From the NCBI RefSeq assembly GCF_030766725.1, contig NZ_JARQWR010000004.1, positions 292,318 through 356,317 on the forward strand: a DNA stretch of 64,000 nt, read 5' to 3'. Below are positions 15,213 through 64,000 of this stretch, piece by piece. The translations under genes were made by a program, and so were the position numbers. The DNA is from Flavobacterium aerium (GTDB lineage: Bacteria; Bacteroidota; Bacteroidia; Flavobacteriales; Flavobacteriaceae). Below the pieces are notes generated by a model. That model did no database searches, had not been told where the DNA came from, and was given only the letters and a program-made list of their open reading frames with translations. Position 1 is the first letter of the stretch. The number at the start of each line of letters is the position of its first letter.

Positions 15213-15641
15213 TTATTCTGGAACCATAAGTTGATAATATTGACCTAAAGAATCAATTGCTTTTAATTTTCCACGACTGGTCCATTCTGTCCGAACTTCC
15301 ATTTCTTTTCCTTCATCACTGTTCAGGAGCCCACTACCGTATCTTCCTTTTGTATTAATATTTCCCGTTACAGTATTACCCAATTCATCGGTACCAATTA
15401 CATCGTAATTATAGCAATAATTATGAGTCTCACCAGTTCGGTATTTGTATTTATAAGTAGGGTTGGTATGAAGCGTTTTTGCTTCTTTAATGGTATCATT
15501 AACCAAGCGTTCTCCTATGAAGAGTAAAGGTTTACTTTGTAAAACCAGAGGTTCGCTTTGAAGATTCTCCCGGCAACTTAATAATGAGAAAGTTAGGGCT
15601 GTGAAAAGGCCTAAATACAGTTTTTTAAATCGTAAATTCAT
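15213..15641 (-). CDS. Lipoprotein of unknown function under the TACGG operator
   Basis: 142 aa. The N-terminus is a lipoprotein signal with lipobox Leu-Leu-Ser-Cys at about residue 23, so the protein is anchored in the envelope. The mature part is small and hydrophilic, with YKYKYRTGETHNYCYNYDV and a run of Gly/Asn turns, probably beta-rich; no domain is recognised. Its promoter (TAAGTTTG) carries the palindrome TACGGTTTTCCGTA exactly 22 bases upstream, the same layout as at the nuclease operon and the regulator gene. Co-regulation with them is therefore likely. Confidence 0.75.
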   Translation of the reverse strand: MNLRFKKLYLGLFTALTFSLLSCRENLQSEPLVLQSKPLLFIGERLVNDTIKEAKTLHTNPTYKYKYRTGETHNYCYNYDVIGTDELGNTVTGNINTKGRYGSGLLNSDEGKEMEVRTEWTSRGKLKAIDSLGQYYQLMVPE

Positions 15642-15669: not shown

Positions 15670-15713
15670 CAAACTTAGAATATACAATAAGCACAACATT
15701 ACGGTTTTCCGTA
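15670..15713 (-). promoter_or_regulatory. Operator plus -7 box before the lipoprotein gene (site 1)
   Basis: TACGGTTTTCCGTA (15700-15713) is followed on the minus strand by exactly 22 bases and the -7 box TAAGTTTG (15677-15670). The position upstream of -33 suits an activator. Confidence 0.75.
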
Positions 15714-15736
15714 TTTACAATACTAATGAAATGGGT

Positions 15737-16546
15737 TTATAGGATACTAAATTGCATGGTGATAGGAATATGATCGGAGATGTACTTGGCTTGTTTTAAG
15801 GAAGCAAATGCCTCATAAAACAAAATGGGTTTAAAATTTAAAACTTTGATTTTGGAAGAATGATAAAAGATATTGTCAAATTCTGAAGCGAGACATACTT
15901 CTTTTTTACACTCATTTTTAAGGGATGTTTTTTGGTTTACAAATACAGATTGATAGCCCATTTTCTTCAAAGGATTGAATACACTATGCGATTGTGGACA
16001 ATTGAAATCACCAACAAAAATCAAATTTTTATCAGGATATTGTTGTGGTAGATGTTTGAAATATTTAATTTCAGTTTCAGGTTGCTTTTTCTTGGTGATT
16101 GCATGAAAATTTACAACCGTAAATGATTTCCCTTTATATTGAAAGGTACAGAAATAAGGCTCTCGATCAATTTCCAGATGATATTTTTGTTCTAACCAAG
16201 CCTTACCTTTTTTCTGAACAGTTTTGCTTTTCCATAAAAAGGCATAACGCTCTTTTTTATAAGAATCTCCCGAAGTAGGGTCACTAACGGTGTAGTCCCA
16301 TTTTGTACCTGTTAGATTCAGTTCGTTGGCCAATCGGGCAACTGCCTGAGCACCGCCAGGACCAGCTACAACTTCCTGAATGGCGATTACATCGTAATTT
16401 TTTAAAGTTTTGGCAATGAAAGTAATCGTCGTATCAGCTTTGGATTTACCAAAATTTTTGAGGTTCCAAGAACAAAGCTTAACCTGAGCCAATGCTGATA
16501 ACTGAAAACAAACGATAAGGAGTAGAAAGATGATTTTTTTCAGCAT
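15737..16546 (-). CDS. Secreted endonuclease/exonuclease/phosphatase-family hydrolase
   Basis: 269 aa with a signal peptide (about 1-20, ending ALAQ). The DNase I-like fold is well marked: CSWNLKNFGKS, the metal-binding Glu in VIAIQEVVAG, VVNFHAI, the Asp-x-Asn in FVGDFNCPQS, and the C-terminal SDHIPI. It probably cleaves phosphodiester bonds in the periplasm or outside; nucleic acid is likely but phospholipid or phosphoinositide-like substrates are possible. It is the last gene of the six-gene operon, 22 bases after the vWA-like lipoprotein gene. Confidence 0.88.
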   Translation of the reverse strand: MLKKIIFLLLIVCFQLSALAQVKLCSWNLKNFGKSKADTTITFIAKTLKNYDVIAIQEVVAGPGGAQAVARLANELNLTGTKWDYTVSDPTSGDSYKKERYAFLWKSKTVQKKGKAWLEQKYHLEIDREPYFCTFQYKGKSFTVVNFHAITKKKQPETEIKYFKHLPQQYPDKNLIFVGDFNCPQSHSVFNPLKKMGYQSVFVNQKTSLKNECKKEVCLASEFDNIFYHSSKIKVLNFKPILFYEAFASLKQAKYISDHIPITMQFSIL

Positions 16547-16568
16547 TGGCGTAGAATAGAGCTATTAA

Positions 16569-17480
16569 TTATTTTTTATTTTCAATAAAGTTCTTGATTA
16601 TCTTGTCCATATTGGACGGTAAATCGGCATTTTTTATTTCAAAACGTTTCACATTCATTTTAGTGAACCAGTCTTTCCAATAGGCTTTAATGACATCCTC
16701 TTCATAAGGATTCTTCTTATCAGGATTAATGCCAATAACGAGAATTTCCAACTGAGATAAGTCTTCATTAGCAGGAATAAAACCAAATTTTTTATCCGTC
16801 ATTTTTTCTTTCCAATTGGCAGTATTTAATCCATTTTCACGAATTAATTCGGGTGTAATGTATGTGGTTTGATTACCTTCCTTTCTTTTGGAATTTTTAT
16901 GGTAAAGATAGCCATCTGTTAGTAGGATTAAAATATTTCGATATGAATCATCTATACAATAATCTTGGACTCTATTTTTAAAAAAACTCCATGTTTCTGA
17001 ACCTGGATAATTCTTATCCTTTATTGTAAGATCATATATTTTCGAAGGATTTGTATTATACGAGGTTTTAATCTCATCCATTAGCTCCTTTGAAGTATTA
17101 CTCTTATTTATGGAGTACTTTAATTGACTCGATAGAGTATTAATTTCATTGTTCTGTGGCTCTGGGTCAAAAAATAATTGAATTTTATCATTAGTTTGAA
17201 CAACTTTTTTGTTTCGTAAATGACTATCAAATGCTTCAGCAGCAGACTTAATATAACCAATATCTCTAATGTAAAATTCCATTGTTGGATTTGGGTATTT
17301 TAAAGGGTCAATACGATCAGATAAATCAAGCAGTAAACTAAGATTTATATTGTTCGAATGGTTGGATTTAGAAACAGAATTTTCTTGATGAGTTTTAGGA
17401 TTACCTAATACTGTTTCCGTTTTATTTCCACAAGATTGTAGTACTATGAAAATGAACGAGAGAATGTAAATTTTATTCAT
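16569..17480 (-). CDS. vWA-like lipoprotein
   Basis: 303 aa with a lipobox (VLQSC, Cys at about 17). The mature part looks like a von Willebrand A fold: NLSLLLDLSDRID at its start, where the usual metal motif D-x-S-x-S is D-L-S-D-R, and ILILLTDGYLY later, matching the family's hydrophobic-TDG strand. GFIPANEDLSQLEILVIGI and a final amphipathic helix follow. The altered MIDAS motif makes metal binding uncertain. It lies 5 bases after the coiled-coil membrane protein gene and faces the periplasm, so it could bind that protein's outer loops. Confidence 0.65.
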   Translation of the reverse strand: MNKIYILSFIFIVLQSCGNKTETVLGNPKTHQENSVSKSNHSNNINLSLLLDLSDRIDPLKYPNPTMEFYIRDIGYIKSAAEAFDSHLRNKKVVQTNDKIQLFFDPEPQNNEINTLSSQLKYSINKSNTSKELMDEIKTSYNTNPSKIYDLTIKDKNYPGSETWSFFKNRVQDYCIDDSYRNILILLTDGYLYHKNSKRKEGNQTTYITPELIRENGLNTANWKEKMTDKKFGFIPANEDLSQLEILVIGINPDKKNPYEEDVIKAYWKDWFTKMNVKRFEIKNADLPSNMDKIIKNFIENKK

Positions 17481-17485
17481 GACAT

Positions 17486-18751
17486 TTAATTTTTTGGATA
17501 CAGTAATAGTTGAAAATCAGATTGAACTAAATTTAAATTATTCAAATGAGTACTAGAGATAGATTCACAATCTTCCAGTAATTCTGTTTTCTGTTTATTT
17601 GGCAATGCCATTTCAGTATTAATAGCCTGAAACCAACCTTCTTTGTATTGTGAGTGATAGTGTAGGTATTCTTTAATAGGGAAAATAAATCCATCAATTT
17701 TAGCTTGTAATTCGGAAATAATTCCATTGATAGCCGTAATTTTTTGTTTACACTCATTGATCTTTTCTAAGACATCTTTTTTGTGTATTTCAAGGTTAAT
17801 AATTTCCTCTTTCTTTGCTCTAACGAAAGCTTTAATTTTATCAATATTCTCATATTCTTTCATTACGAAATCAAAGACGAGCCCCCAAATAATATATACA
17901 ACGAAACCTGCAAATATGATCATCCAAAATTCTGCTTCTCCTAGTGCAATTGTTAGATTGTAAGGAGAGGAGTCTATTGTTTTATTGAAATCGTAAATTT
18001 TCTTCTCTATTTGATAAGCTAATAAAGCATCGAATAAAAAAGTAATAAAGAAAAGAGCTGCAATTTTAAAAACATTAATTAAACCTTTTCCTTTTTGAAC
18101 CATATGAATTACATATCCTAGACCCATAAATACAAAAGGAATTGTAATGACAAGTACACCTTCTAGCCAGCTGGCTTTAAAAGCATTGTTTAAAGCATCA
18201 GCATCAAAGATGGCGGCTGTTAGGCTGATATCTGTAAACTCTTTAAAAAAAGCAGAATAAGAAGCAGAAATATAAAATACTAATAAATAAAGTGTTATAG
18301 GTAATAATAAAGATAATCCTATATAGAACTGAGCTTTTGGACGTTTGTCCGCCTCAATACCATGTTTTTCAGGATTGTGTTTTACCTCAATCATATCCTG
18401 TTTTGTAGTGTCGATGGCCTCAGTTAAATCTTGTTCTTTTTTCTCGAAAATAGCTATGGCAGTTTCATTTTTTTTAAGCTCAGACCTGTTTTTCTCTTGT
18501 TCCTCAATATAAGGTTGTTTTAATCTTATTTGTTCCTGTTTTTGCTTTCTACATTGATCTTCAAAGCTGTTGTAGACATTTTCAAGACAAGCTCTAAATG
18601 TAATCGGTCTTCCAGAAGCTTTTGTAGAGGCAGCAAATCCACTTTGATAATAAGTATATCGGATTTGTTCTCTATCTTCTTCTGGATCGATTGTTATCAT
18701 CATTTGTGGTTCAGTTTTTTTGATACTGAATAATTGTTTTAGTGATGTCAT
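17486..18751 (-). CDS. Four-helix membrane protein with flanking coiled coils
   Basis: 421 aa, family unknown to me. A cytoplasmic N-terminal part has a charged coiled coil (about 62-135). Four membrane helices follow at about 141-165, 195-217, 227-247 and 272-296. A second coiled coil (about 300-365) leads to a C-terminal tail. Both ends are inside, so long charged coils project into the cytoplasm, where they could bind the TerB-like protein encoded just upstream (3-base gap). No channel or enzyme motif is seen. It is the likely membrane core of the operon. Confidence 0.7.
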   Translation of the reverse strand: MTSLKQLFSIKKTEPQMMITIDPEEDREQIRYTYYQSGFAASTKASGRPITFRACLENVYNSFEDQCRKQKQEQIRLKQPYIEEQEKNRSELKKNETAIAIFEKKEQDLTEAIDTTKQDMIEVKHNPEKHGIEADKRPKAQFYIGLSLLLPITLYLLVFYISASYSAFFKEFTDISLTAAIFDADALNNAFKASWLEGVLVITIPFVFMGLGYVIHMVQKGKGLINVFKIAALFFITFLFDALLAYQIEKKIYDFNKTIDSSPYNLTIALGEAEFWMIIFAGFVVYIIWGLVFDFVMKEYENIDKIKAFVRAKKEEIINLEIHKKDVLEKINECKQKITAINGIISELQAKIDGFIFPIKEYLHYHSQYKEGWFQAINTEMALPNKQKTELLEDCESISSTHLNNLNLVQSDFQLLLYPKN

Positions 18752-18754
18752 CGT

Positions 18755-19162
18755 TTATGAGTTTAACTGATTAATAATTTCGTCTTTCTGAATTCCTTTT
18801 TGGACACAATCAATAAGATAGGTCGTAATATCATCTATGTTCTCTTCTAAAAAATCGAATTTTTTGCAATATTTTTTCAAAGCATTTTTTTCATCTTCTG
18901 TTACAATATCATCAACGAGTATCATACGCGTAAGATCATAGAGGTAATTAATTCGTTCGGTAATGTCGTTTGGAATAATCGATTCGTGTTGAGTTGGGTT
19001 TAATAATAATTTTTCCATTTCCGATTTAGGAACTCCACGCTCATCAGCAAAATGATAAAGCATTTGGAGTTCCAAAACTCCAAAATTGTCATCGGATAAA
19101 GCAATTTGGTAAAGTCGAAGAAAATGACTTTTTAGTTCTTCAGTGAGTATAGTATTTGTCAT
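18755..19162 (-). CDS. TerB-like protein
   Basis: 135 aa, all helical. LYQIALSDDNFGVLELQMLYHFADERGV and, in the second half, LTRMILVDDIVTEDEKNALKKYC give the two repeats with Asp-rich turns typical of the TerB fold. TerB proteins bind divalent metal and act in membrane-linked stress complexes; despite the name, many have nothing to do with tellurite. There is no signal peptide, so it is cytoplasmic. It sits between the Cys-rich SH3 gene (15 bases) and the coiled-coil membrane gene (3 bases). Confidence 0.75.
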   Translation of the reverse strand: MTNTILTEELKSHFLRLYQIALSDDNFGVLELQMLYHFADERGVPKSEMEKLLLNPTQHESIIPNDITERINYLYDLTRMILVDDIVTEDEKNALKKYCKKFDFLEENIDDITTYLIDCVQKGIQKDEIINQLNS

Positions 19163-19177
19163 AATTATGAGAGATGT

Positions 19178-19663
19178 TTATTGTAGATTACTTGAAAGAA
19201 TATATCCAATTATTTTAGTTTCCAATACTTGTACTTTAACCCATTCTTCTGTATTTCCTAAGATTTTTAAAGTATTCTTATTGCTGATTTTTGCAATAAC
19301 ATCGGAATCCTTACTAGGCTCTTTTCTTAGATTAACAGATCGTGCAATCGTAACGGTTTTTCCCTTTTTATACACATTAAAATTGAAATTGATATTGATG
19401 TCTTTAGATGAGTTTTTAGAAGTTGAGGATTTAGATTCAGTATAATTTGAATTTTTGCCAGAACTACATACTCCACAACTTCCGCCAGAGGAGCAGTGCT
19501 TACAACCGGAACAATTTGTACATGCAGTACAAGACATGGAGCCAGTGCATTTTCGAGCTTCAGTCGCACAACAGGAAGCTATAATTACATTTGATTTAGC
19601 AACTTGGGCGGTACAAAAGTTGATTGTAAATAGTAAAACGAAACAATAGAAAAGTGATTTCAT
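19178..19663 (-). CDS. Secreted Cys-rich protein with C-terminal SH3 domain
   Basis: 161 aa from the ATG at 19663, which begins a normal signal peptide; an ATG at 19699, inside the preceding gene, would add 12 residues before it. After the signal, about 36 residues hold ten cysteines, including five in a strict Cys-x-x-Cys ladder (CTACTNCSGCKHC). A Ser/Asn-rich linker follows, then a bacterial SH3 domain (VTIARSVNLRKEPSKDSDVI to GYILSSNLQ) that commonly binds peptidoglycan. The cysteines could bind metal or form disulfides. Second gene of the operon. Confidence 0.8.
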   Translation of the reverse strand: MKSLFYCFVLLFTINFCTAQVAKSNVIIASCCATEARKCTGSMSCTACTNCSGCKHCSSGGSCGVCSSGKNSNYTESKSSTSKNSSKDININFNFNVYKKGKTVTIARSVNLRKEPSKDSDVIAKISNKNTLKILGNTEEWVKVQVLETKIIGYILSSNLQ

Positions 19664-19688
19664 AAGAGGTATGGATGTTGAATTGAAA

Positions 19689-20756
19689 TTAGTTCTCATA
19701 TATTTCTAAGACTTTGAAAAGAGATTCGGAGTGATCGAAGATGTCGTCTAATGAATTTAATTCATGTTTAATTTCTTTCTTCTTTTCATCGAGGATAGCA
19801 ATGTATTTTTTGCTGCTGTTGAAATAAAGTCGGCAGATTGTTTTTCTATTATTATCGTCCAATAAGATTGCGAAATACGACTGAGCATCGCGGTATATAA
19901 CTCGATTAACAGCTATTTTTTGTCTCAAAATTGTTTTTACAATCATGAAACCTTCTAGTTCTTCTGCTGTTGTAATAATATTTGAGGTATCGTCTTTGAT
20001 GGTGTCAGAAAGTGCAGCATCTTGTTCTTTCGTAACTTCTCCTTCTTTGGTAAGAGCTGATTTAAGACGTTCTGTAATTAAATCACTGATGTATTGTTGG
20101 ATTGATTTTTTGGTAAGACTGGTGAATTGTTCTAAAATTTTTGCTGTAATAATGCTAGGATAGACTTGACGGGTAAAATGTTTTACAAATTCAGTACTTG
20201 GATTTGAAAATTCGGTATGAATAAGTTTTTTCAATTCAAATGTATATTTCAAATCGCTAGCAGTATTAACAATGTTTTCAAAATCGTAATACGCTTTATG
20301 AAATTTTTTCAGTTCTTCGATTTGATTATCCTTAACATCAGTGATGTCAAAAGCAAAAAAAGGCTTTTCATCCATTTTATTGGTTTCTACCAAATCGGTG
20401 TAAAAACGATATTCAATACCATTGGTCAAAATTGAAAACTTAGCCTTAGTTGTATGAAAATAACGGAAAAGTTGAGAAGCATTATTTACTGTAAGAGGAG
20501 CACCATGATGCTTACATTCAATCAAAATAATAGGCTCACCATTTTGCATAATTGCATAATCAATCTTTTCTCCTTGCTTTAAACCGATATCAGCAACAAG
20601 TTCTGGAGTTACCTCCGAAGGATTAAAAACATCATAACCCAATTCTTTAATGAAAGGCATGATAAAAGCATTCTTTGTTGCCTCTTCTGTATGTACTTGG
20701 CTTTTAAGTTTTGTTACTCGATCACCAAGAAGTTTTATTTGATCTTTGAAGTCCAT
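19689..20756 (-). CDS. Stand-alone HsdR N-terminal-type nuclease protein
   Basis: 355 aa. The first 180 residues resemble the N-terminal nuclease domain of type I restriction HsdR subunits. ThrGluGlu-Ala-Thr-Lys-Asn near 23-29 is followed by the PD-(D/E)xK core, Asp66 (KIDYAIM) and Glu80-Cys-Lys82 (IILIECKH), then FRYFHTTKAKFSILTNG. No helicase motor, HsdM or HsdS is present. The C-terminal half is unknown but ends in a compact domain (IYRDAQSYFAILLDD to YIAILDE). It may cut DNA or sense it. First gene of the six-gene operon; its promoter has operator site 2. Confidence 0.8.
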   Translation of the reverse strand: MDFKDQIKLLGDRVTKLKSQVHTEEATKNAFIMPFIKELGYDVFNPSEVTPELVADIGLKQGEKIDYAIMQNGEPIILIECKHHGAPLTVNNASQLFRYFHTTKAKFSILTNGIEYRFYTDLVETNKMDEKPFFAFDITDVKDNQIEELKKFHKAYYDFENIVNTASDLKYTFELKKLIHTEFSNPSTEFVKHFTRQVYPSIITAKILEQFTSLTKKSIQQYISDLITERLKSALTKEGEVTKEQDAALSDTIKDDTSNIITTAEELEGFMIVKTILRQKIAVNRVIYRDAQSYFAILLDDNNRKTICRLYFNSSKKYIAILDEKKKEIKHELNSLDDIFDHSESLFKVLEIYEN

Positions 20757-20804
20757 AATTGAATAGTATAATTAATTATAAGTTTGATGTAAATTTTCAC
20801 TTTT

Positions 20805-20848
20805 CAAACCTACTACCATTGTCAATGTTTTTTTTACGGATTCCCGTA
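20805..20848 (-). promoter_or_regulatory. Operator plus -7 box before the six-gene operon (site 2)
   Basis: TACGGATTCCCGTA (20835-20848), exactly 22 bases, then TAGGTTTG (20812-20805) on the minus strand. The -33 region is poor, as expected for an activator-dependent promoter. Confidence 0.75.
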
Positions 20849-20875
20849 AACCCATTTTATCAAAAATGAAGGCAT

Positions 20876-20905
20876 AAAAAAACCAGCTCAATTGAGCTGG
20901 TTTTT
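20876..20905 (-). terminator. Terminator of the response regulator gene
   Basis: Perfect palindrome AACCAGCTCAATTGAGCTGG(TT) flanked by A and T runs, 15 bases after the stop of the regulator gene. Confidence 0.9.
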
Positions 20906-20919
20906 AAAGAGAGAATATT

Positions 20920-21591
20920 TTAAATTAACCCCATATCCTTAGCAATGCTAACGAGATGAATAGAGTTTTTAGCTTTAAAAAAGATTTTTAGTTTATTGAT
21001 TCGTTTTTCAATACTACTTGTACTGGATGGAGTAACATCTTGTTTTTTAAATAAGAAACCAATTTCTTCTTGTCCTAAACCTTCAGAAAGATGCTTGATG
21101 AGTTGGATGTCATACTCATCGATTTCTAAGATAGATTTGTCCGTTAGAATATGTGCTAATTCGGGGGATATGTAGCGAGCATCTTCATCCTGTGCCACTG
21201 TGGTAACAGCTTTCGATAATTGAACAGAACCATCACGTCCTTTACTCACATAAGCATTGATATTAGAATCTTCAAATAAAGATTTTATAGTATAAGGACG
21301 ATTTTCAACAGAATAAACAATAACATTAATATCCGGTTGTTCCTTCTTTACAGCCTCTATAAGTTCTTTACCACTACTGAGTTTTGTTTCTCTATGGTCT
21401 TTTTCAAAAGAAAGATCACTAATTAATAAATCATAGGGAGCTTTATCAAATAGTGCTCTTTTAATTTTTAAAAAGGCATCATCACAATATTTAACATGAT
21501 CAATTTGAGCGGATGTAATTTGCTCTAAGATTGGGACAAGACCTAAATTCATCGTGTCAAAATCTTCGGCTATTAGAATTTTTTTAAACAT
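20920..21591 (-). CDS. NarL/LuxR-type response regulator
   Basis: 223 aa. The receiver domain (about 1-125) has the acidic pair Glu9-Asp10, the phosphoacceptor Asp59 (LLISDLSF), Ser94 and Lys117 (VSKG). After a linker, residues about 155-223 form a LuxR-type HTH: LSEGLGQEEIGFLF and, as recognition helix, SSIEKRINKLKIFFKAKNSI. No histidine kinase gene is in the window, so the partner is elsewhere. Its own promoter has operator site 3, and the only divergent gene has site 4. I infer that it binds TACGG-N4-CCGTA and controls itself and the neighbouring genes. Confidence 0.9.
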   Translation of the reverse strand: MFKKILIAEDFDTMNLGLVPILEQITSAQIDHVKYCDDAFLKIKRALFDKAPYDLLISDLSFEKDHRETKLSSGKELIEAVKKEQPDINVIVYSVENRPYTIKSLFEDSNINAYVSKGRDGSVQLSKAVTTVAQDEDARYISPELAHILTDKSILEIDEYDIQLIKHLSEGLGQEEIGFLFKKQDVTPSSTSSIEKRINKLKIFFKAKNSIHLVSIAKDMGLI

Positions 21592-21652
21592 AGGATACTT
21601 TTTTGAACTGAAAAATCAGATTACGTATTAATTCATATTTACGATATGAGGT

Positions 21653-21696
21653 CAAAAATAATCTTTCGATATACTGTCACAATACGGGTTTCCGTA
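21653..21696 (-). promoter_or_regulatory. Operator plus -7 box before the response regulator gene (site 3)
   Basis: TACGGGTTTCCGTA (21683-21696), exactly 22 bases, then TATTTTTG (21660-21653) on the minus strand. Confidence 0.75.
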
Positions 21697-21736
21697 CTCC
21701 GTCATTCATTTTTTAAAGATCGACTTTTTTATTGAA

Positions 21737-21780
21737 TACGGAAAACCGTAAAATGTTTTGCACTAAAAAAAGTTACTTAG
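21737..21780 (+). promoter_or_regulatory. Operator before the divergent membrane-protein gene (site 4)
   Basis: TACGGAAAACCGTA (21737-21750), 22 bases, then TTACTTAG (21773-21780), which keeps 4 of the 6 fixed -7 positions. It faces the plus-strand gene at 21840. Confidence 0.65.
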
Positions 21781-21839: not shown

Positions 21840-22838
21840 ATGGATAAAATTACTTTTGAAGATTATAGATTAGCTGTTAAAGCTAAATATGAAGAAGAAA
21901 AAAACGGTAAGAATTCGCGTTTTTTTGTGCCGTTAAAGCGTTCTAAATTAAAAGATTTATCGGTAATTCTTTATAAAGAAAAATTAAATGTAGACGATCA
22001 GGGGGCTTTTGATAATTTTTTTGATTTTAAAGAGGAGCATGGGAAATTACAACAACTGAGAAGATTTGATACAGATAAATTTCGAACATTACAAAATTTT
22101 TTAAATGGAATAACGACTGACCCTCAATGGGAAACGATAGAATTAATAGCAGTCTTAATAGATTTTTCATTACGTCCTTTTCGGAAATACCATAATTCAA
22201 TAAGTCAAGTAGAAGATGATATAATAGAAAAAAAAGGGAAAGAAGAAAAAAGCGGAAGTGATTTATATAATCAAAAGGAACCAATTGACGATATTGAGAA
22301 AGAAATAGTTGATGAACAAGATAAAGAGCTAATAGTTATCGATGGTATTATTGGAGATTGTAAAGATTTAGATAATCAAGAAAGTTTAGAAGCTAGAGAT
22401 TCAGAAAATAAACCTACTAAAAGGAAGTTTTTTTTAAGAGCAATAAAAAATAAAACGACTCATCGGGTAGGAGGTGTTTTTGCCGTACTACTTTCTAGTA
22501 GCTATATTATATCAGGGTTTATTTTTCCAAATAAAGATTGTATGGTTTGGAAAAGGGATCATTATGAAGCTGTAAATTGTGATGATGAAATTATAGGAAG
22601 TGGAGAGAAATTTGTAGCTCGAAATGATGAGTTGATAAAAAATATGCGAAAGGTTAATGTCTGCGATACGACTACATTTTTTAAATACAATAAACCGGTG
22701 CTCTGGTACGGGAAATCGGCACCTGGTGGAGATTATGAATTCTTTAGTTATCCAGGGCGCCATCCTATAACAGATAAAGCTTTGAAAGATGTAACAGGAC
22801 ACATTGTAAGTAATACAATTGCAACCCAAAATAATTAA
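21840..22838 (+). CDS. Single-pass membrane protein of unknown function, divergent from the response regulator
   Basis: 332 aa. The N-terminal 200 residues are charged and cytoplasmic, with a helical first part (to about 120) and an acidic linker (125-190). One membrane helix lies at about 210-229. The outer C-terminal 100 residues contain CMVWKRDHYEAVNCDDE, then YNKPVLWYGKSAPGGDYEFF and HPITDKALKDVT. I recognise no family. The layout (inside domain, TM, small outside domain) would suit a signal sensor or anchor. Operator site 4 lies before it, so it probably belongs to the same regulon as the nuclease operon. Confidence 0.75.
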   Translation: MDKITFEDYRLAVKAKYEEEKNGKNSRFFVPLKRSKLKDLSVILYKEKLNVDDQGAFDNFFDFKEEHGKLQQLRRFDTDKFRTLQNFLNGITTDPQWETIELIAVLIDFSLRPFRKYHNSISQVEDDIIEKKGKEEKSGSDLYNQKEPIDDIEKEIVDEQDKELIVIDGIIGDCKDLDNQESLEARDSENKPTKRKFFLRAIKNKTTHRVGGVFAVLLSSSYIISGFIFPNKDCMVWKRDHYEAVNCDDEIIGSGEKFVARNDELIKNMRKVNVCDTTTFFKYNKPVLWYGKSAPGGDYEFFSYPGRHPITDKALKDVTGHIVSNTIATQNN

Positions 22839-62902: not shown

Positions 62903-64000
62903 ATGAAAAAAATTACTTTATTGATTTTATTAACCCTTTTATCCTTTGCGAGCTATGGCCAGCAGCAGTTGACCGAAGGATTTGAAGGAGCCGTTTTTCC
63001 GCCACCCGGATGGACCGTTACGGATAACGGAGTAGCGACCAACGTAAGTTGGGTTTCTACATCAGTACCTAATTTTGTCCATTTAGGTACTAAAGCAGCT
63101 TATTTGAATACAGAGAATACTGGAGGACCGCTTAGTCAAGACTGGTTGATTACGAAACCAGTTAATTTAGCAGGAATCACGAATGCTCAATTAAAATTCT
63201 TTACCAGACAAGGAACTTTTGGCGACCAAGGAGGAAAATTTCAGATTAAAGTAGCGACTTCAGCTACTAACGTAATGCCACCTTTAGCCAGTTTCGTACA
63301 GGCTCAAGAATGGGATGAAACTAGTTTGAATACCCCTTTTGACCTTTACCAACAAAAAACAGTTTCTCTAAATGCCTTTGCAAATCAACCATTTGTTTGG
63401 GTTGCCTTTGTTGGTGTTAGAAACCCTACGGGTGACCGTTGGTTAGTAGATGATATTCAGATTGAAGAGCTATGTTTTGAGCCAACAAACTTAGCAATGA
63501 ATATCCCAACTTTAATCTCTGCAAACTTAACGTGGACGGCAAATAGTGGTGAAACAACATGGGATATTAATGTTGTGGCTCAAGGAGCACCAAATGATCC
63601 AGCAACTGTTACATCAAATATTACCACAAATAACTATTTAAAAGGAGGATTAACACAAGGTACAGCCTATGATTATTACGTTCGTGCAGCCTGTACTTCA
63701 GGTTCATATAGTAACTGGGTAGGACCATTTAGTTTTAGTACTCGTTTTTATGGAGAGACTTGTGAAGCACCTATAACAGTACCTTCTTTACCATACACTC
63801 ACTCGAGTAATACGGCAAATTATGGTAACCATTATACCGGTAGTCCAGGAACTTCTTGCGGAGTAACAGGAGTTTACTTAAATGGAGATGATGTAGTGTA
63901 TGCATATACACCAGACTTTACAGGAGCAATCAATATGACGATGACTCCACAAGGTCAGAAAACAGGTATGTTTGTTTATACAAACTGTGCTGATATTGGA
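62903..64000 (+). CDS. Secreted adhesin-like protein, 5' part (3' end outside window)
   Basis: The first 366 codons of a gene running off the window. The signal peptide (1-20, SYGQ) is followed by a jelly-roll domain of the choice-of-anchor/cleaved-adhesin type (LTEGFEGAVFPPPGWTV, then SQDWLITKPVNL and DRWLVDDIQIEELC; to about 192). A fibronectin III domain (about 195-282) comes next. The following domain (CEAPITVPSLPYT, NYGNHYTG, NGDDVVYAYT) is clearly similar to residues near 1120-1220 of the protein at 41319. A T9SS sorting domain is expected at the missing C-terminus. Confidence 0.88.
   Translation, partial: MKKITLLILLTLLSFASYGQQQLTEGFEGAVFPPPGWTVTDNGVATNVSWVSTSVPNFVHLGTKAAYLNTENTGGPLSQDWLITKPVNLAGITNAQLKFFTRQGTFGDQGGKFQIKVATSATNVMPPLASFVQAQEWDETSLNTPFDLYQQKTVSLNAFANQPFVWVAFVGVRNPTGDRWLVDDIQIEELCFEPTNLAMNIPTLISANLTWTANSGETTWDINVVAQGAPNDPATVTSNITTNNYLKGGLTQGTAYDYYVRAACTSGSYSNWVGPFSFSTRFYGETCEAPITVPSLPYTHSSNTANYGNHYTGSPGTSCGVTGVYLNGDDVVYAYTPDFTGAINMTMTPQGQKTGMFVYTNCADIG

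Follow-up and report, generated by a model that had tools for sequence, protein, structure and literature searches.

What reads a palindrome that recurs at one fixed distance from the promoter? An earlier note on the 64-kb stretch of Flavobacterium aerium DNA analysed here (the window) had pointed to four perfect copies of TACGG-N4-CCGTA, each 22 bases from a candidate -7 box, and had proposed that a nearby response regulator (RR) binds them. Here, we investigated the palindromes in the window, in the whole genome, and in relatives, together with the RR and the genes that the sites precede.

The palindrome and the 22-nt rule

A scan of the window found the four perfect palindromes where they had been described and no others, the next best match being one with a single mismatch at 63427. 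Operator 1 (15700..15713, minus strand; TACGGAAAACCGTA) is separated by 22 nt from the -7 box TAAGTTTG (15670-15677, minus strand) and lies upstream of a lipoprotein gene. Operator 2 (20835..20848, minus strand; TACGGGAATCCGTA) has the same spacing to TAGGTTTG (20805-20812, minus strand) upstream of a six-gene operon, and operator 3 (21683..21696, minus strand; TACGGAAACCCGTA) to TATTTTTG (21653-21660, minus strand) upstream of the RR gene. Operator 4 (21737..21750, plus strand) repeats the sequence TACGGAAAACCGTA and, again after 22 nt, is followed by TTACTTAG (21773-21780, plus strand) upstream of a divergent membrane-protein gene. The claimed spacing thus holds at all four sites. The sigma-A -7 box TAnnTTTG, whose background in the window is 0.00074 per position on each strand, is present at three of them, and the fourth box keeps 4 of 6 consensus bases, as the earlier note had it.

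We counted homologues of the neighbouring genes by tblastn near the RR, within the available DNA, in the best 80 of 449 named loci. The operon begins with an HsdR N-terminal (HSDR_N, type I restriction enzyme) protein of 355 aa (19689..20756, minus strand; homologues at 15 of 80 loci), followed by a 173-aa bacterial SH3-domain protein (19178..19699, minus strand; 1 of 80) and a 135-aa TerB-like protein just below the Pfam cut-off (18755..19162, minus strand; 14 of 80). Next are a 421-aa protein that reads as membrane and coiled-coil (17486..18751, minus strand; 14 of 80) and a 303-aa lipoprotein-like protein that reads as vWA-like (16569..17480, minus strand; 14 of 80), both with no family above cut-off. 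The last gene encodes a 269-aa protein of the endonuclease/exonuclease/phosphatase family (15737..16546, minus strand; 41 of 80). Family searches of the operon returned little beyond HSDR_N, SH3, TerB, and the endonuclease family. Behind operator 1 lies a 142-aa lipoprotein-like protein (15213..15641, minus strand; 21 of 80), and behind operator 4 a divergent 332-aa protein with a hydrophobic stretch and no family match (21840..22838, plus strand; 39 of 80).

In the whole genome (4,008,990 bases, 56 contigs), the perfect palindrome occurs seven times and the reversed control pattern not once. Three of the seven lie outside the window; they had not been used in making the 22-nt rule and serve as a blind test of it. 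All three passed, with TAGATTTG, TACGTTTG, and TAAGTTTA following after 22 nt as boxes of the form TAnnTTT[G/A], the last one base off the consensus. The genome-wide scan that the earlier note had called for therefore finds the spacing kept at all seven perfect palindromes, and the predicted regulon is larger than the four units first described. The three additional sites precede a 46-aa ORF, an 833-aa protein, and a 76-aa DUF4177 protein. The 833-aa protein matches CHAT weakly at its C terminus (E 2e-4, below cut-off), and this CHAT-like target matched no PADLOC model. The 46-aa ORF adjoins an apparent IS3-type element (L008, 8200-9840; 100-aa and 287-aa ORFs), which lies directly behind the operator and the ORF; L205, a sibling of this locus, retains the same 46-aa ORF.

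Relaxing the pattern added little. A search for the palindrome alone that tolerated one mismatch gave 47 places in the genome, and the control gave 41; imperfect palindromes taken on their own are thus mostly noise, and they were rejected as regulon members. The 44-bp pattern with up to three mismatches gave 24 forward and 26 reverse matches versus 27 and 18 for the control. Within that set, only C33:401989 and C55:20185 are a single palindrome base off with spacing and box kept, and the genes behind them are a DUF3892 gene and a CBS-domain gene.

We then turned to relatives, using the best 80 of 449 named loci from an RR-alignment scan of named genomes; these are mostly Flavobacterium, with Aquimarina, Leptobacterium, Hanstruepera, Algibacter, and Seonamhaeicola also represented. 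In this set (1.50 Mb), 82 palindromes are spread over 59 loci, and TAnnTTTG boxes 0-60 nt downstream of them sit at spacing 22 in 67 of 71 cases, the other four falling one each at 11, 23, 25, and 41. The same spacing is thus found in relatives that carry the RR, where the earlier note had suggested looking for it. Seven control palindromes gave 0-4 oriented matches each in these 80 loci, none with a box. Among 60 distal stretches, picked with a pattern that allowed spacings of 14-30, 61 of 70 boxes at 10-33 nt sit at 22, and 60 control stretches from the same genomes, 300,540 bases in all, contained a single palindrome. Chance as the source of the pattern was rejected on the three blind sites together with the control palindromes in the genome and in the 80 loci. 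What emerges from these comparisons is a conserved, predicted regulon with a rigid operator-promoter rule, and new genomes can be scanned for its members with one 44-bp rule.

Some variants recur. A spacing-23 site (TACGGGAAACCGTATTGAAT...) is present in about a dozen genomes among the matches listed, and at L164 (G006:C12:83056) it lies upstream of UDP-sugar dehydrogenase and nucleotidyl-transferase-type genes. In several genomes (L172, L187, L188, and L327), the -7 box is followed within a few bases by the start of a 53-57-aa ORF (M[KNH]..YQ...DREK-like) whose end is hydrophobic.

The response regulator and its predicted promoters

The RR gene (20920..21591, minus strand) encodes a protein of 223 aa. 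Against Pfam, it matched Response_reg and, weakly, DUF5932, both below cut-off; neither GerE nor PF19192 was among its matches. The receiver has the acidic pocket, the phospho-acceptor Asp, and the Lys, and two alignments, of 24 and of 41 RRs, show no variation at D10, D59, or K117. The predicted fold is RcsB-like (mean pLDDT 89.1), and the best PDB matches of the model are full-length RcsB structures with a TM score of about 0.5-0.7. The earlier label of a NarL/LuxR-type regulator is supported by the predicted fold and finds no counterpart in a Pfam GerE match. In family f5, several genomes have two neighbouring RR paralogs, for example at G053:C1:2855793-2857546.

The palindromes are very probably the operators of this RR. 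Phosphorylated by a TPR-type histidine kinase, the 223-aa regulator would bind them as a dimer and, from a class II position with the operator centred at -41.5, activate sigma-A promoters. Class II activators, of which CRP is an example, occupy this position, and the Bacteroidota sigma-A promoter also has a TTTG element at -33. The F. psychrophilum sigma-A box TAnnTTTG is placed at -12 to -5 (PMC9723704). With the 22-nt spacing, that box position puts the spacer at -34..-13 and the palindrome at -48..-35, so the centre falls at -41.5 and the operator keeps a class II location at fixed distance. Across 184 unique sites, no conserved TTTG signal was seen at the -33 place, whether in the spacer or at the operator end. 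The extra signals at these sites flank the palindrome: TACGG is preceded by a T (0.83), and CCGTA is followed by an A (0.89) and, more weakly, by a G two bases further on, in third place (0.53). The earlier description of activator-like promoters with fixed geometry and weak -33 regions fits this comparative picture, in which the 22-nt rule is kept in two families of the order sample (see below). The missing -33 element suggests activator dependence. It could also be read the other way, since the palindrome ends where that element, not conserved here, would lie: the RR would then bind and repress, its operator against the -33 region blocking RNA polymerase until a signal relieves it. Activation and repression look alike at the level of sequence alone, but a rigid 22-nt distance would be expected of an activator contact and is more than a repressor needs, and we consider repression improbable.

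Control by the RR also accords with where the sites occur. In a genus sample of 121 genomes, with the RR called at E below 1e-70 and a site defined as palindrome plus box at spacing 14-30, sites are present in 61 of 66 RR-positive genomes versus 8 of 55 RR-negative ones; one RR copy, in G136, is broken by stops. In an order sample of 246 genomes, with the RR called at E up to 1e-30, the figures are 72 of 79 versus 3 of 167. The Fisher p values (1.9e-19 for the genus sample and 8e-50 for the order sample) ignore shared ancestry and are inflated because the sampled genomes are related. Within the order sample, families f1 and f5 have both RR and sites, and none of the genomes from the remaining families listed has a site. 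Perfect sites are missing from 5 of the 66 RR-positive genomes in the genus sample and 7 of the 79 in the order sample. In most of the best 80 of 449 named loci, sites lie at or within the genes that flank the RR. This co-occurrence supports the palindrome-RR regulon that the earlier note had put forward.

The sites in the 8 and 3 RR-negative genomes would suit a different binder of the palindrome, a DNA-binding protein that accompanies the RR and for which the RR is just one target. Among the eight from the genus sample, four are listed at spacing 20 or 21, and G081 and G117 have sites at 22; for G091 and G115, the spacing is absent from the matches listed. Against such a protein, searches of the conserved island for families and homologues turned up no further DNA-binding family, and the site embedded in the kinase gene (see below) lies directly upstream of the RR gene. 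Furthermore, the palindrome is an inverted repeat, a form suited to a NarL/FixJ dimer. We regard a separate binder as very improbable, more so than repression.

Individual genomes differ in how their sites are distributed. G081, where no RR was found, has four spacing-22 sites, three with near-identical spacers, and its sites at L189 and L190 lie upstream of unrelated genes. The sites of L168 are in G117, a genome where the RR was likewise not found. G101 (L201-L209) has ten full-rule sites, all of the TACGGAAAACCGTA form and mostly ahead of unrelated genes.

The kinase gene and its predicted embedded operator

The gene order in relatives is divergent gene, kinase, RR, and operon. Among the best 80 of 449 named loci, 76 have an ORF of at least 200 codons ending beside the RR gene; the single one scanned is a TPR-HATPase_c histidine kinase, and the rest share its C-terminal motif. 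The coding ends carry T..GG....CCGTA in 75 of 76 cases and TAnnTTTG at the 22-nt distance in 74; the two occur together in 73, and the embedded palindrome is perfect in only 5. The RR's own predicted operator is thus located, in relatives, inside the coding end of the preceding kinase gene. L036 and L038, from genus genomes with the RR and no perfect site, have degenerate versions of the operator at the kinase end.

Codon choice at this end is strikingly uniform. The second codon encodes different residues (V 43, M 15, A 13, and T 5 among the 76 kinase ends), yet it ends in G in 61 of 61 non-Met cases versus 7.6 expected. Arg is encoded by CGT in 75 of 76 (background 0.12) and Asn by AAC in 67 of 67 (background 0.30). 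In an alignment of 73 genes with 66 conserved degenerate columns, the columns where a single codon reaches at least 97% are those of the operator and box and two others nearby (GGA 0.97 and AAA 0.98), and the other three Arg columns have mixed codons. Because synonymous choice is fixed there, it is the DNA, and not the protein alone, that is conserved at the kinase end. That the motif is a by-product of a conserved protein motif, with no promoter, is the least probable of the alternatives and was rejected: the residues are themselves conserved as part of the ATPase domain end, but synonymous positions are fixed at both operator and box, the variable V/M/A/T codon always ends in G, and an orphan kinase (see below) has a similar protein motif without the DNA motif. 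A promoter embedded in the kinase end would give the RR positive feedback. With a predicted operator fixed at its synonymous sites, the kinase end clearly illustrates dual coding and offers a direct handle on autoregulation.

The window itself departs from this order, as no kinase lies beside the RR, between it and the divergent gene. In our preferred reading, with the RR as activator, the kinase gene would have been lost from this interval and the operator would have stayed with the RR. Operator 3 may be a fossil-like remnant of the kinase 3' coding end, because its frame reads TETRIVTVYRKIIFDLIS and then a stop. Its spacer has a mean identity of 0.52 to the embedded spacers versus a maximum of 0.49 for any of 119 distal sites, although spacer identity is a weak measure because operator 4 read in reverse also reaches 0.49. 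The closest kinase relative in the genome is an orphan at G000:C33:236192-237844 (43% identity), which keeps a similar protein motif and has no operator DNA motif at the same codons. As the best sequence match, we infer that this orphan could be the partner of the RR.

Distal targets and known systems

The distal loci number 114, as 57 plus 57 stretches in two sets, three of the first set at spacing 23. At least 14 of the 114 include genes of a kind known from anti-phage defence: type I methylase or restriction genes (L183, L331, and L343), type IIG restriction (L198), type III restriction (L370 and L375), Drt2 (L194), TIR/ThsB (L167, L206, L212, and L332), a DrmD-like helicase (L341), GajA-GajB of Gabija (L346), and JetA and JetC of Wadjet (L374). 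L167, counted here as TIR, lies in G117, where no RR was found. Five loci (L183, L194, L198, L370, and L375) were assigned by reading the sequences because the PADLOC results gave families only, and L162, a kinase with E 7e-63 to a PADLOC model, was left out because kinase models are generic. Most other distal targets are lipoproteins, small membrane proteins, or unknowns.

Two sets of 100 target proteins gave PADLOC family totals of 237 and 515, and two control sets of 100 gave 13 and 114, a contrast that is overstated because a single methylase or helicase is hit by dozens of models. We therefore counted loci, under three rules. Hand judgement gave 14 of 114 versus 1 of 58 control loci (p 0.015), named models at E up to 1e-40 gave 13 versus 2 (p 0.066), and inclusion of candidate models gave 14 versus 4 (p 0.21). 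The target counts are lower bounds, as single scans covered 28 distal target proteins (10 + 8 + 10) and the others were seen through truncated family listings. Because p ranges from 0.015 to 0.21 with the rule, the excess of defence genes among targets over controls is only suggestive. In the fullest reading, the anti-phage arsenal of Flavobacteriales would answer to a common switch, the one conserved kinase-RR pair. Systems gained horizontally (type I, III, and IIG restriction, TIR/Thoeris, Gabija, Wadjet, and DRT) would enter the regulon with a ready-made -41.5 operator-promoter, and the feedback operator of the pair would be hidden in the kinase gene. We offer this tentatively and with somewhat less than even confidence. 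If the defence link is true, one chromosomal signalling pathway would control many unrelated mobile anti-phage systems, and the inducing signal would become a directly testable question.

A literature search that covered few subscription papers returned no description of the TACGG-N4-CCGTA operator. To our knowledge, few activator operators have been mapped in this bacterial group. NarL sites are inverted repeats of the TAC...GTA type in a 7-2-7 arrangement; the operator described here shares the TAC...GTA repeat and differs in being 5-4-5. Like RcsB, VraR, LiaR, and NarL, members of the NarL/FixJ group, the RR is predicted to have a receiver followed by a helix-turn-helix, and its model is closest to full-length RcsB. 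Unlike in that group, its output domain has no Pfam GerE match and matches DUF5932 weakly.

The predicted geometry resembles class II activation by CRP, the operator centre being likewise at -41.5 for a box at -12..-5 (PMC9723704). Here, the promoter is of the Bacteroidota sigma-A type, and activation is predicted. PMC8011034 describes Response_reg_2/HEF_HK pairs, two-component-like genes that adjoin restriction-modification genes, and a link between two-component genes and restriction-modification is common to both cases. Those pairs have PF19192, which the RR described here does not match. They are also neighbours of their restriction-modification loci in that account (PMC8011034), whereas the kinase-RR pair described here would be linked to distant loci through its predicted operator.
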